Positions 28,102 to 32,092 of a DNA stretch of 64,000 nt are shown here, in pieces. Position 1 is the first letter of the stretch, and every line of letters begins with the position of its first letter. The position numbers were made by a program, and so were the translations under genes. The stretch comes from an uncultured Oscillospiraceae bacterium. Its GTDB lineage: Bacteria; Bacillota; Clostridia; Oscillospirales; Oscillospiraceae. The notes under the pieces were generated by a model. The model searched no databases. It saw only the letters and a list, made by a program, of their open reading frames with translations, and was not told where the DNA came from. The stretch covers positions 1-64,000 of the forward strand of contig CALXDJ010000009.1 of the NCBI GenBank assembly GCA_944387035.1, in the 5' to 3' direction.

Positions 28102-28861
28102 AGTTCTTTCCCGGCAGCGGAAGCGTATGCACCATAACCCGGCCAAGACAAACCACGTTCCGTCCGCAGCCCGGAGTCAGCACCACATCCGCATCTGCCC
28201 GGGCACGGTTCAGTGAAAACAAATACACCACACCCGCCGGGTCCTTATAATATTGCTTGCAGAACATATCTCCATCCACGCAGAAAATGCCCACATCACC
28301 GGCCCGGAGCGGATCCCGGTTCACATAGACAATCGAGCCGTCGGCAATGACCGGGATCATGGAATCTCCCTGAATGCGCACGGCAAACTCCGCTGCCTGG
28401 GGAACAGTCTCGTCCACCTGGATATAGTCGAAATCCTCCCCAAACACGGGTGCGGCATAGCCTGCCGCCGCCGGACTGCGATAAAGCGGAATCACACGGG
28501 GCTCCGGTTCCGTAGGCATGGCCTCCAGATCATCCCGATAGGCGCACATGGCGGTTACCATGGAACCTACCGCCTCTTTTCCCAGCGCAGACAAACTCCG
28601 GTAGTGTTTCAGCAGTTCCCGCTCCCGGTCGCTGAGAACCGTTTCCCCCCGAAGGAAATGATCCTGAAAGAGGGTATTGGGATCCGTTTCCAGACAGTCA
28701 AACAGCCGCAGCAATACCGGCTCCTTGGGAAAACTGGTGTCTTGTTCATAGTTTCCGATGGCGGACGGCGAAACACCCAACCGCTGGGCCAGTTCGGTCC
28801 GGGAAATTCCCAGCGCTTTTCGCTGTTCCCGCATGCGTTGTCCAAAGCTCATCCCGTTCAT
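28100..28861 (-). CDS. CI/LexA-like repressor: XRE helix-turn-helix with S24 peptidase domain
   Basis: 253 residues. Residues 5-60 are an XRE helix-turn-helix (TELAQRLGVSPSAIGNYEQ). Residues from about 125 form an S24/LexA-type autoprotease: a cleavage-like AAAGYAAP linker, the catalytic Ser in QGDSMIPVIADGS and the Lys in DGDMFCKQYY. Such proteins repress prophage or stress genes and self-cleave when RecA is activated. ATG 28861 has GAGG five bases upstream; ATG 28852 is possible. Its promoter faces three dyads (28926-29005), so autoregulation is likely. No cro, integrase or phage structural gene is nearby; it may be a relic of a lysogeny switch. Confidence 0.88.
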   Translation of the reverse strand: MNGMSFGQRMREQRKALGISRTELAQRLGVSPSAIGNYEQDTSFPKEPVLLRLFDCLETDPNTLFQDHFLRGETVLSDRERELLKHYRSLSALGKEAVGSMVTAMCAYRDDLEAMPTEPEPRVIPLYRSPAAAGYAAPVFGEDFDYIQVDETVPQAAEFAVRIQGDSMIPVIADGSIVYVNRDPLRAGDVGIFCVDGDMFCKQYYKDPAGVVYLFSLNRARADADVVLTPGCGRNVVCLGRVMVHTLPLPGKN

Positions 28862-28890
28862 CCTTTCCTCATCCTCTTCCCATTATGATT

Positions 28891-28919
28891 ATGGTATCGG
28901 ATTTTTCCTTGCCTGTCAA
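28891..28919 (-). promoter_or_regulatory. Promoter of the repressor gene
   Basis: Minus-strand TTGACA (28914-28919) and TACCAT (28891-28896) with a 17-bp spacer. The first operator dyad begins seven bases upstream of the -35 box. Confidence 0.75.
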
Positions 28920-28925
28920 TCTTAA

Positions 28926-29005
28926 TTTACAAGTTTCTTGTAAAAAATATATTGACATAACAAAATTCTTGTGTTAATGTAGTCATGCTTACAGGAAACT
29001 TGTAA
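28926..29005. promoter_or_regulatory. Three operator-like dyads at 31-bp spacing
   Basis: Three related inverted repeats: TTTACAAGTTTCTTGTAAA (28926-28944, perfect), ACAAAATTCTTGT (28960-28972) and TTACAGGAAACTTGTAA (28989-29005). Their centres are at 28935, 28966 and 28997, exactly 31 bp apart, about three helical turns. The common half-site is ACAAG. They lie between two divergent promoters, with the middle site inside the plus-strand promoter spacer. The adjacent repressor is the natural binding partner (inference). Confidence 0.8.
28952..28980 (+). promoter_or_regulatory. Plus-strand promoter controlled by the operators
   Basis: TTGACA (28952-28957) and TAATGT (28975-28980) with a 17-bp spacer that contains the middle operator; the third operator covers the start site. 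It points away from the repressor toward two tRNA genes on the opposite strand and, beyond them, the small genes at 29353-30048. Confidence 0.7.
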
Positions 29006-29070
29006 ACTCCCTCACAGTAAATCAGGTAAATTGTCAGTTCGTGTCTATTTCGCAGATCTGCCTGAAAACA

Positions 29071-29104
29071 AAAAAAGTTGGGACAAGCAATGCTTGTCCC
29101 AACT
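29071..29104 (-). terminator. Terminator of the tRNA-Thr/tRNA-Tyr unit
   Basis: A 14-bp stem (29075-29088 with 29092-29105) directly adjoins the CCA end of tRNA-Tyr and is followed by a run of U on the minus strand. The plus strand has no T run after the stem, so it is one-directional. Confidence 0.88.
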
Positions 29105-29188
29105 TGGTGGGGGAAGGTGGATTCGAACCACCGAAGCCGAAGCAACAGATTTACAGTCTGCCCCATTTGACCGCTCTGGAATTCCCCC
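29105..29188 (-). tRNA. tRNA-Tyr (GTA)
   Basis: An 84-nt class II tRNA on the minus strand with long variable arm, 7-bp acceptor stem GGGGGAA/TTCCCCC, anticodon loop CTGTAAA (GTA) and encoded CCA. Confidence 0.96.
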
Positions 29189-29199
29189 ATATGAAATTT

Positions 29200-29275
29200 T
29201 GGAGCTGGTGGACGGATTCGAACCCCCGACCTGCTGATTACAAATCAGCTGCTCTACCAGCTGAGCTACACCAGC
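29200..29275 (-). tRNA. tRNA-Thr (TGT)
   Basis: A 76-nt cloverleaf with acceptor GCTGGTG/CACCAGC, anticodon loop TTTGTAA (TGT), discriminator U and encoded CCA. The T stem (GGGGG/CCGTC) has one G-G mismatch. It is cotranscribed with tRNA-Tyr. Confidence 0.94.
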
Positions 29276-29294
29276 AGTTCCAACAGCAGGATTT

Positions 29295-29323
29295 ATCTTA
29301 GCAGATAAGTCCCATTTTGTCAA
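29295..29323 (-). promoter_or_regulatory. Promoter of the tRNA-Thr/Tyr unit
   Basis: Minus-strand TTGACA (29318-29323) and TAAGAT (29295-29300), 17-bp spacer, 20 bases before tRNA-Thr. Confidence 0.82.
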
Positions 29324-29352
29324 CACCTTTTTTGATTTTTTTTGAAGGAGGA

Positions 29353-29544
29353 ATGAACCTGCATTTTTCACATCGCATTAGGCACCATATTTTGCTGTGC
29401 ACGCTCTGCGGCCGGGAAATTGCGCCAGGCGAAGAATACTGGGCCTGCAATGGCAGCCGCGTCTGTGCTGCATGCCTTTTGGATTTTGCCAAACAGGAAT
29501 TTGCCGCCTGCCGGCAGACGCGGGGAAAGGAGATACCCTTATGA
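29353..29544 (+). CDS. Small zinc-ribbon protein, hypothetical
   Basis: 63 residues. Two CxxC knuckles (CTLC and CAAC) about 20 residues apart suggest a single zinc ribbon; no other domain. The start is not certain: ATG 29353 sits only one base after GGAGG, unusually tight. Four bases overlap the next gene, so it belongs to a three-gene set with 29541-29750 and 29752-30048. Small zinc-ribbon proteins of this sort occur in phage-derived gene sets, but I cannot name a function. Confidence 0.6.
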   Translation: MNLHFSHRIRHHILLCTLCGREIAPGEEYWACNGSRVCAACLLDFAKQEFAACRQTRGKEIPL

Positions 29545-29750
29545 CATTACTGGAACTATCCGTTCAATATGCCGACGGCGCTGCCGCCATCCATACCCGC
29601 ATTCGGGAGCTGGAACAGCTGGAGCAGCTCCAGACAGACCCGGTCTGTGCTCAGGCACTCCGGCGCCGGATTCTGGAGCTGACGCCCCTGTGGCGGGACA
29701 TGCGGGAAATGACCCGCCGCACAGCGCACTACTACGACAGGAGGCATTGA
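29541..29750 (+). CDS. Small helical protein, hypothetical
   Basis: 69 residues, largely charged and predicted helical (IRELEQLEQLQ, ALRRRILELTPLWRDMRE), probably a coiled coil. ATG 29541 is behind AGGAGA and overlaps the upstream gene by four bases; the stop is one base before the next start. The organisation suggests it acts with the sigma-like protein that follows, as a partner or accessory subunit (inference). Confidence 0.65.
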   Translation: MTLLELSVQYADGAAAIHTRIRELEQLEQLQTDPVCAQALRRRILELTPLWRDMREMTRRTAHYYDRRH

Positions 29751-29751
29751 G

Positions 29752-30048
29752 ATGGCAAATCGCACCTTTGATACCCGCAGCAGTGAATGGCTGGGCGATA
29801 TGACCGTATGGCTGCGGGACAACGCCAATACCAACTCTGAGCTGCTGACCCGTCTGCGGCAGAATCTGCGCCGGGCGCGCCAGCAGGAGCTTACCCCCCG
29901 CCAGCAGCAGGTCCTGACCCTGTATTACGACCAAGGAATGAATATGACCCAGATTGCGCAGACTCTGGGCGTCAACTGCTCTACGGTGTCCAGAACCATT
30001 CGGAGGGCCAAGCAGCGGCTCTACCGCTGCCTGCGCTATTGTCTCTGA
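29752..30048 (+). CDS. Sigma-70 region 4-like DNA-binding protein
   Basis: 98 residues. The C-terminal half (LTPRQQQVLTLYYDQGMNMTQIAQTLG, then STVSRTIRRAKQRL) is a sigma-70 region 4 helix-turn-helix; regions 2 and 3 are missing, so it cannot be a complete sigma factor. Proteins of this size are typical of prophages and conjugative elements of clostridia, where they act as transcription regulators. RBS AGGAGG, ATG 29752. Last gene of the small cassette; no terminator follows before the promoter at 30065. Confidence 0.8.
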   Translation: MANRTFDTRSSEWLGDMTVWLRDNANTNSELLTRLRQNLRRARQQELTPRQQQVLTLYYDQGMNMTQIAQTLGVNCSTVSRTIRRAKQRLYRCLRYCL

Positions 30049-31037: not shown

Positions 31038-31685
31038 ATGGAAACCCCTGTCGCCGTTTTGGCCGGAACACCCGTAGACACGCAGATGGGCGCCGTCTTT
31101 GTGAAACAAGCCGGCCTCCTGGCCTGTCCATTCCCCTTGGCAGCCGATCCCCGGTCCCAAACCGCTTTTCAGATCTCCTCCTACGCGGAAAAGATGCAGA
31201 CCGTCCGTGACGTGCTGGCCCAAGCGCAAACCCAGGGCTGCCGGCGTGTGTTTGTCTACTGCAATTCCCTCTCTTCCTCCGTAGACTTCCCCACACTGGC
31301 CCGCGAGACCGGCCTGCGGATTGTAACTCCCCTGGATGTCTACCGGCATCTGGCGCCCTCCTATGGCCGTCTGGGACTCATTGCCGCCAACGCTCAAGGA
31401 CTGGCGGGGATCGAGCGGACGCTGCTCACCGCCAATCCGGAGCTGGATTTACTGGGGGCTTGCCTGCTCCCGGTGGTATTGTCCATTGAGGCCGGGCTTC
31501 CGCCCCGGGAACTGGTGAAGCAGCACCATCTGGGCGAACTGGCCGAGTGGTACCGCACCTGCGGCATGGACGCTTTGATTTTGGGCTGCACTCATTTTCC
31601 CTATTTTAAGGAGGCCTTGGCAGAGCAAACCTCTTTGCCGCTGATCGACCCGGCGCAGGAAATGGTCCGTTTACTGCTGGCATAA
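31038..31685 (+). CDS. Aspartate/glutamate racemase family protein
   Basis: 215 residues. The two catalytic cysteines of the superfamily are visible: Cys75 in VYCNSLSS and Cys184 in GCTHFPYF, with Asp14 in a TPVDT loop. It is shorter than MurI (about 265) and has no DSGVGG N-terminal motif, so it is probably not the cell-wall glutamate racemase; amino-acid or hydantoin racemase activity is possible. Cotranscribed with the YitT protein. Confidence 0.8.
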   Translation: METPVAVLAGTPVDTQMGAVFVKQAGLLACPFPLAADPRSQTAFQISSYAEKMQTVRDVLAQAQTQGCRRVFVYCNSLSSSVDFPTLARETGLRIVTPLDVYRHLAPSYGRLGLIAANAQGLAGIERTLLTANPELDLLGACLLPVVLSIEAGLPPRELVKQHHLGELAEWYRTCGMDALILGCTHFPYFKEALAEQTSLPLIDPAQEMVRLLLA

Positions 31686-31691
31686 CGTTAA

Positions 31692-31732
31692 CCCCCCGCA
31701 GAAGCCCTTAAAATGGCTTCTGCGGGGGATTT
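31692..31732 (+). terminator. Terminator of the YitT/racemase unit
   Basis: A 14-bp stem CCCCCGCAGAAGCC/GGCTTCTGCGGGGG (31693-31706 with 31715-31728) is followed by ATTTTCG. Confidence 0.85.
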
Positions 31733-31806
31733 TCGTGTACAGTGCCCAACTGCCACTCCGGATGCGCTCCGCGCCGGTGGAGGCAGCGCGTTCTCTCCGT
31801 CTATGC

Positions 31807-31839
31807 AAAAAAGAGGACATCCAGATCGGATGTCCTCTT
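31807..31839 (-). terminator. Duplicate copy of the tRNA-Gly terminator
   Basis: The same 12-bp hairpin as at 31978-32010 and a U run, in repeat copy 1; the loop differs by one base. Confidence 0.8.
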
Positions 31840-31845
31840 GCTATA

Positions 31846-31874
31846 TGGAGCGGGCAACGAGGCTCGAACTCGCT
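31846..31874 (-). pseudogene. tRNA-Gly 3' fragment (29 nt)
   Basis: Exact copy of the last 29 nucleotides of tRNA-Gly (T arm, acceptor 3' strand, discriminator and CCA) without any matching 5' part; the upstream sequence cannot complete the cloverleaf. Confidence 0.88.
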
Positions 31875-31934
31875 TCCGGCATCCCGCAAACGGCTTCGCC
31901 ATTTGCAGGAACCCTGCCGCACCTCTCTTTTTAC

Positions 31935-32045
31935 GCGCTCCGCGCCGGTGGAGGCAGCGCGTTCTCTCCGTCTATGCAAAAAAGAGGACATCCAAATCGG
32001 ATGTCCTCTTGCTATATGGAGCGGGCAACGAGGCTCGAACTCGCT
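31935..32045 (-). repeat. Direct repeat copy 2 (111 bp) overlapping tRNA-Gly
   Basis: The second copy, 171 bp from the first, which runs into the intact tRNA-Gly. Its end inside the T arm is a position where many integrases recombine. Confidence 0.9.
31978..32010 (-). terminator. Terminator of tRNA-Gly
   Basis: 12-bp stem AAGAGGACATCC/GGATGTCCTCTT with a 5-base loop, followed on the minus strand by six U, seven bases after the tRNA CCA. Confidence 0.9.
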
Positions 32046-32092
32046 ACCTCCACCTTGGCAAGGTGGCGCTCTACCAGATGAGCTATGCCCGC
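32017..32092 (-). tRNA. tRNA-Gly (GCC)
   Basis: A 76-nt complete cloverleaf with acceptor GCGGGCA/TGCCCGC, anticodon loop TTGCCAA (GCC), T loop TTCGAGC and encoded CCA. Its 3' 29 nucleotides are duplicated at 31846-31874. Confidence 0.97.

Follow-up and report, generated by a model that had tools for sequence, protein, structure and literature searches.

A Probable Domesticated Phage-Type Repressor Switch with Phased Operators beside tRNA Genes in Oscillospiraceae

The window, that is, the whole stretch of DNA analyzed here, comprises 64,000 nucleotides from an uncultured Oscillospiraceae bacterium. On its minus strand, at positions 28103..28861, lies a gene for a protein of 253 amino acid residues. 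The protein matched helix-turn-helix models (HTH_31/HTH_3) and Peptidase_S24 above the Pfam cut-offs, and its PHROG match was to a transcriptional repressor. These Pfam matches confirm what an earlier note on this DNA had read from the letters alone, namely that the gene encodes a repressor with an S24 protease domain. The residues AAAG at 131-134, Ser-167 and Lys-202 were invariant in all 61 close relatives and in all 14 of the 16 distant rows that had letters there. By likeness to LexA and CI, we take the bond between Ala-133 and Gly-134 to be the cleavage site, and Ser-167 and Lys-202 to be the catalytic Ser/Lys pair. By this analogy, the conserved residues fit RecA-assisted self-cleavage of the protein. 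The possibility that the repressor is LexA itself was ruled out by its score against TIGR00498, which was 24.3 bits and below the cut-off of 110.95; a separate lexA gene is present in the same genome. A full-length relative of the repressor (E below 1e-90) was found in 61 of 86 same-genus genomes, and 47 repressor loci belong to named genome records, mostly Oscillibacter, Dysosmobacter, Oscillospiraceae or Clostridia. On the opposite flank, beyond the repressor, an SDR-like reading frame (named by eye) was common to 19 of 38 loci.

Two promoters diverge from the region upstream of this gene. The promoter of the repressor (TTGACA-17-TACCAT, 28891..28919, minus strand) was detected by a promoter scan, and its -35 box keeps its position relative to the first operator described below. 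The opposite promoter, P+ (TTGACA-17-TAATGT with an extended TG, 28952..28980, plus strand), was recognized from the window sequence and from its conservation in relatives; it is absent from the list of the generic promoter scan. The earlier note spoke of two divergent consensus promoters. Both promoters are present and P+ is conserved, but the word "consensus" is too strong for the P+ of the window, because its -10 box has only 3 of the 6 bases in addition to the extended TG.

The intergenic region upstream of the repressor gene contains three copies of an operator core, ACAAGNNNCTTGT, with their centres 31 bp apart. O1 (TTACAAGTTTCTTGTAA, 28927-28943, centre 28935) is a perfect dyad with 10 of 10 core bases and lies between the two -35 boxes. 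O2 (TAACAAAATTCTTGTGT, 28958-28974, centre 28966) and O3 (TTACAGGAAACTTGTAA, 28989-29005, centre 28997) have 9 of 10 core bases each; the former is inside the spacer of P+, and the latter is at or after the inferred P+ start. These positions agree with the proposal that one predicted operator occupies the spacer and another the start of P+. The likeness to lambda OR also held, in that predicted operators of a repressor with intact self-cleavage residues are flanked by divergent promoters.

Of 50,000 dinucleotide shuffles, none gave a triple of the family core at 30-31 bp, 43 had at least three sites at 8/10 or better, and 12 had a pair at 30-31 bp. The result depends on the shared core. That is, the centre of O2 by self-complementarity alone is 28967, which makes the spacing 32 and 30 bp, and evenly spaced weak dyads appeared in 4201 of 5000 shuffles when arms of at least 4 were accepted and in 110 of 5000 with arms of at least 5, a setting at which the window itself fails. 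Thus, when dyad symmetry is the sole measure, the window by itself is weak evidence. The array is nevertheless real, and the sizes of the gaps in the relatives settle the matter. We reduced 117 loci to 86 having distinct upstream DNA. The 102 gaps between successive operators were 31 bp in 41 cases, 30 bp in 20, 62 bp in 19 and 61 bp in 11, with 11 other single values; that is, 91 of the 102 were 30-31 or 61-62 bp. Together with the shared core and the shuffles, these gaps bear out three operators with centres 31 bp apart.

The arrangement relative to the promoters is also constant. The distance from O1 to O3 was 60-63 bp in 54 of the 57 close relatives with a called P+, and that from the repressor -35 box to the O1 centre was 15-17 bp in 54 of 57. 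In 56 relatives, a core of at least 8/10 was present in the O1 slot of 56, the O2 slot of 23, the O3 slot of 50 and the O4 slot of 15, and in only 2 at O0, the mirror slot in the spacer of the repressor promoter (background 0/171); O1 was the selection criterion for these counts, and one of the 57 loci, L068, was left out because its O1 fell below the cut. The slot counts therefore place the array over P+ and away from the repressor promoter. Conservation of the dyads had been named beforehand as one of the tests by which the proposal could be refuted, and the operators and their spacing proved to be retained across many species alongside P+. Three loci (L062, L068 and L077) keep the repressor without the arrangement of P+, O2 and O3. 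In a second clade, at about 55-61% identity, P+ is kept and the operator is different; the two clades can also be told apart almost consistently by positions 43-46, behind the recognition helix (S-F-P-K versus N-A/P-M/V-R).

P+ was called in 57 of the 61 close relatives. Among the other four, L027 and L105 were dropped by a length filter though P+ is visible in them, and L062 and L077 are truly without P+. The P+ called in L068 has no operators and adjoins another gene. Since the search fixed the spacing at 17 bp and took the best candidate, the conservation of the P+ spacing is partly imposed, and the information profile is the more independent evidence that P+ is conserved. In 54 deduplicated rows, ten-base bins of this profile gave 1.33 bits at the -35 box, 1.17 bits at the -10 box and 0.93 bits around O3, followed by 0.06-0.21 bits from +60 and under 0.1 from +80. 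P+ with its extended -10 box was also found in 20 of 22 family-level loci (L240-L261, of which L240 is from the same genus and the rest are from other genera). Two of these relatives, L241 and L247, have one in-frame stop in the repressor and retain P+ and the operators.

The middle slot of the array was found in different forms. In 57 relatives, the O2 slot held a LexA-like SOS box (of the GAACATATGTGC type) in 26, a repressor operator in 23, and neither in 8. The box resembles GGAACAAATGTTTG, which we found to precede the lexA frame by 71-90 nt in 4 of 7 lexA loci, including that of the source genome; the remaining three had a box at 246 nt, a box inside the gene and no box, respectively, and none within 100 nt upstream. 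On the repressor tree, the smallest number of switches between operator and LexA-like box was 7, and well-supported branches by themselves force about 3, the tree having been made by a quick method with 31 of its 72 inner branches weakly supported.

The earlier note called the locus a relic. In the sense of decay this description does not fit, since the repressor, the operators, their spacing and P+ are maintained in many species and in other genera of the family. It might still be argued that P+ is a non-functional leftover and that autoregulation alone matters, because no conserved gene stands behind P+ and because L062, L068 and L077 retain the repressor without the array. We regard this as very improbable. 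The -35 box and the extended -10 box are maintained in two clades with different operators and in other genera, and the O2 slot has switched between operator and LexA box while the promoter stayed.

What P+ produces is less easily read. A cro- or mor-like gene behind P+ was not recognized by eye in the frames of the window or in those listed for 18 loci, among which L068 has a divergent gene of an unrelated kind. No conserved gene or sequence was found behind P+ in the close relatives, in which the conservation of the information profile ends just past the operators. The absence of a cro-like gene, as proposed, is thus borne out by the window frames and by the relatives. Two reading frames antisense to the tRNA genes (29031 and 29041) were taken as spurious. 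Some RNA of an unassigned kind from P+ is possible. One candidate is a short RNA or a tiny peptide specific to each lineage: Shine-Dalgarno-like runs stand 50-60 nt after P+ in some distant relatives and a 50-codon frame is present in L273 (both by eye), and the profile of the distant clade, with 8 rows only, keeps 0.3-0.7 bits past +60. Against this, conservation past O3/O4 is at background in the 54 close relatives, and the Rfam search of 28860-29360 gave only the tRNAs near the gathering score. A short product of this kind appears quite unlikely to us.

P+ points at tRNA-Tyr (GTA; 29105..29188) and tRNA-Thr (TGT; 29200..29275), both on the minus strand and antisense to P+, exactly as had been proposed and as the tRNA annotation confirms. 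Read in the P+ direction, the terminator of the pair (29075..29105, minus strand) shows no U-run (by eye). Beyond the tRNAs, three small genes on the plus strand (29353..30045) encode proteins of 63, 69 and 98 residues, the last one resembling sigma-70 region 4. The order of repressor, array, tRNA-Tyr, tRNA-Thr and sigma-like gene was found in 61 of 76 distinct loci, mostly with the 69-aa and 63-aa genes before the sigma-like gene. The remaining 15 comprise nine whose upstream DNA is too short, L079, which stops at the tRNAs, L034, which was retrieved incompletely and whose genome retains the gene order by coordinates, and four real breaks, namely L050, L062, L068 and L077.

One alternative is that antisense transcription from P+ might act on the single tRNA-Tyr and on tRNA-Thr and lower them during SOS. 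In 57 of 76 loci, tRNA-Tyr lies in front of P+ and no more than about 800 bp from the repressor start, and the tRNA terminator, as noted, is without a U-run in this direction. There was one full-length tRNA-Tyr match in the source genome, as in each of the 9 genomes tested, and an antisense effect therefore stays conceivable. However, P+ is equally intact where extra DNA intervenes, and also in G075, whose tRNAs are on another contig. We consider such an effect quite improbable.

The small genes beyond the tRNAs were favoured as the target at first because of their synteny. Transcription from P+ would then cross about 370 nt of antisense tRNA genes and express the 63-aa, 69-aa and sigma-like genes, so that cleavage of the repressor during SOS would lead to a sigma-like factor in a cascade like that of PBSX and Xpf. 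Besides the gene order, several findings are consistent with such a cascade. By reading, no conserved promoter in the P+ direction stands between tRNA-Thr and the first small gene. The sigma-like gene has profile hits that include "positive control sigma-like factor" below its cut-off, and it was present (E<=1e-19) in 57 of 61 repressor-bearing genomes compared with 4 of 25 other genomes of the genus, kinship being ignored (58 and 5 at E 1e-10). Moreover, P+ and the sigma-like neighbour are both absent in L062 and L077.

The same block, however, exists without the switch. We selected from 118 genomes 18 sigma-like loci, belonging to 17 genomes without a comparable repressor match. Sixteen of the 18 had the same tRNA pair in front, 14 had a relative of the 69-aa gene, and the repressor was not found close to any of them, one of them having only 0.7 kb of upstream DNA. 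In G075, one contig holds the repressor and its four operators and another holds the block of tRNAs and small genes, which has neither P+ nor an exact operator. In G010, the block is without a repressor on 4.5 kb beyond tRNA-Tyr, and P+ was not found there. In nine loci, furthermore, tRNA-Tyr is 0.8-2.6 kb away from the repressor start, and six of these have a long opposing reading frame between. Since the tRNA pair and the sigma-like gene keep their order without repressor or P+, the small genes do not need the switch. Thus, the suggestion that the switch controls the small genes beyond it holds as far as synteny is concerned, but as a statement about control it is largely rejected, and we do not count these genes as part of the switch. 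The Xre/Xpf system of PBSX also combines a repressor with a sigma-like factor; here, nothing points to the sigma-like gene being dependent on the repressor. The read-through cascade is possible but quite unlikely.

Several other observations concern these tRNAs and small genes. Four repressors that are 38-43% identical (L265, L269, L273 and L274) are likewise neighbours of these two tRNAs and the sigma-like gene and have other dyads and a divergent promoter of the TTGACA type (by eye). In L203, L206 and L207, relatives of the 69-aa and sigma-like genes follow phage-tail-like genes, identified by Baseplate_J in L206 and by eye in the other two, and this gene pair thus also occurs in prophage-like elements. 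In L197 (4180-4282), whose genome lacks the repressor, a frame resembling the C-terminal part of an integrase (by eye) stops just past the tRNA-Tyr terminator, suggesting that the tRNA-Tyr site is an integration hot spot. Elsewhere in the window (31671-32092), two near-identical stretches beside a tRNA-Gly have overlapping frames that repeat the same peptide, possibly as a duplicated tRNA flank.

We also searched the genomes for further predicted operators. The perfect operator ACAAGWWWCTTGT occurred 121 times in the 86 same-genus genomes. Among the 75 of these listed, 63 were at the home array and 12 elsewhere, and a reversed control pattern matched 8 times in the genomes of the listed sites and 15 times across all 86. 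With 12 sites away from home against 8 control matches among the matches listed, few if any further targets are indicated, and the idea of a wider regulon was set aside. In the source genome itself (L008, contig C42, 5240-6760), an insert of about 1.4 kb with a flanking repeat of roughly 55 bp has HNH-like and ribbon-helix-helix-like frames (by eye) and two near-operators 43 bp apart; either a small element or an artefact of the assembly could account for it.

As to the origin of the locus, the comparison with related genomes that the earlier note had proposed did not find a prophage at this site. The same chromosomal place by tRNA-Tyr and tRNA-Thr is kept in 61 of 76 loci and no close relative of the repressor was found in IMG/VR; a prophage was accordingly rejected for the window. 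In a phage collection, 102 records matched the repressor; among the 20 listed, MT839951.1 was 59% identical and the rest were under 30%. MT839951.1 (L238) is an unverified 5.4-kb fecal scaffold filed as phage, with the same array and P+, a tRNA-Val and, by eye, the start of the antisense tRNA-Tyr. Because this neighbourhood of array, P+ and tRNAs is that of the chromosome, we took it as chromosomal DNA. MT836668.1 (L239), an unverified 9.2-kb fecal scaffold also filed as phage, has a relative of the sigma-like gene and small genes in the same order. Both records look like misfiled bacterial DNA. An anti-phage immunity through shared operators was unsupported, as just 2 IMG/VR contigs had paired operators, with a spacing of 29 bp. 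The virus contig L237 has the same layout with 29-bp spacing and a cro/CI-type helix-turn-helix gene after P+; its repressor gave no match to S24, and the next gene is IrrE-like (M78). The spacing, the missing S24 domain and the M78 neighbour make it an analogue in layout and not a demonstrated ancestor. In several paralogues of the repressor (L096, L128 and L130-L132; 33-46% identity), a small HTH-like gene occupies the divergent position (by eye), with weak, below-cut-off Pfam support for the two tested. The simplest account would be that a phage immunity region was captured beside a tRNA gene, lost its partner gene, and was retained for a long time.

Taken comprehensively, the locus is, in our judgment, likely to be a domesticated phage-type immunity switch, and the repressor is probably an autorepressor that can be cleaved in the SOS response. 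From the domains, the cleavage and catalytic residues, the array and the conservation of P+ as read in the sequence, we infer the binding, cooperativity, cleavage and SOS induction as follows. A dimer of the repressor would bind O1, O2 and O3, and in some relatives O4 too, probably cooperatively; operators 31 bp apart, or about three helical turns, would lie on one face of the DNA, and this spacing suggests cooperativity. The bound array would close P+ and leave the repressor's own promoter open, because the O0 slot in the spacer of the latter is not an operator. DNA damage may then trigger RecA-assisted self-cleavage at the Ala-Gly bond, upon which P+ would fire. In sister species, LexA in the O2 slot may add a second SOS lock. 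The likeliest output of P+ is a non-coding transcript that would act locally, and this is the most tentative part of the explanation.

A switch without Cro can also be imagined, in which P+ itself, and no protein, opposes the repressor. That is, transcription from P+ would cross O2-O4 and clear the array, so that RNA polymerase would play the part of Cro, and cleavage of the repressor or, in sister species, of LexA would tip the balance. If true, this would account for the retention of P+ regardless of the DNA that follows. We think of it as a tentative idea on the unlikely side.

The domesticated switch can be compared with several known systems. In lambda OR, several operators cover the lytic promoter and leave the CI promoter open, the spacing is about 23-24 bp, CI undergoes S24-type self-cleavage, and cro is present. 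The asymmetry is the same here, with an array over the divergent promoter and the repressor promoter spared, but the spacing is 31 bp, cro is missing, and the locus is chromosomal and kept at one place. In the CTX phage, RstR and LexA jointly hold one phage promoter, which a phage gene follows; here, in contrast, the middle operator gives way to a LexA-like box in part of the species.

The switches of phage 13 and TP901-1 (PMC8516035) also operate in a Gram-positive host; their divergent promoters are separated by three palindromic CI sites with the operator half-site AGTTCAYR, and mor stands behind the lytic promoter. That partner gene is present there, whereas none was recognized here. The closest known system seems to be FddR of Francisella (PMC13148647), a co-opted phage S24 repressor that occurs genus-wide, binds its own promoter region in a DNA-damage context through the motif GTG-N11-CAC, and regulates mainly itself and a divergent protein-coding gene. 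The present repressor appears to share with it the origin as a co-opted phage-type S24 repressor, the genus-wide occurrence (61 of 86 genomes), the targeting of itself (63 of the 75 listed sites at home) and the small number of genes regulated beyond. It differs from FddR in having at least three phased operators, a middle slot that can be swapped for LexA and a separate LexA gene, and in the lack of any conserved gene in the divergent position.

Searches among open-access papers gave no account of this locus. The locus would represent a phage immunity module that most of the sampled species of the genus, and other genera as well, have kept as a chromosomal circuit of one locus. It also offers a natural series of variants, in which the operator specificity varies in step with the residues that follow the recognition helix, the middle operator and a LexA-like box have replaced one another several times, and the promoter is conserved without a conserved product. 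This series would make two questions directly testable, namely the purpose served by a self-contained SOS repressor unit, and whether the antagonist protein of a two-state switch may be replaced by nothing more than a promoter.
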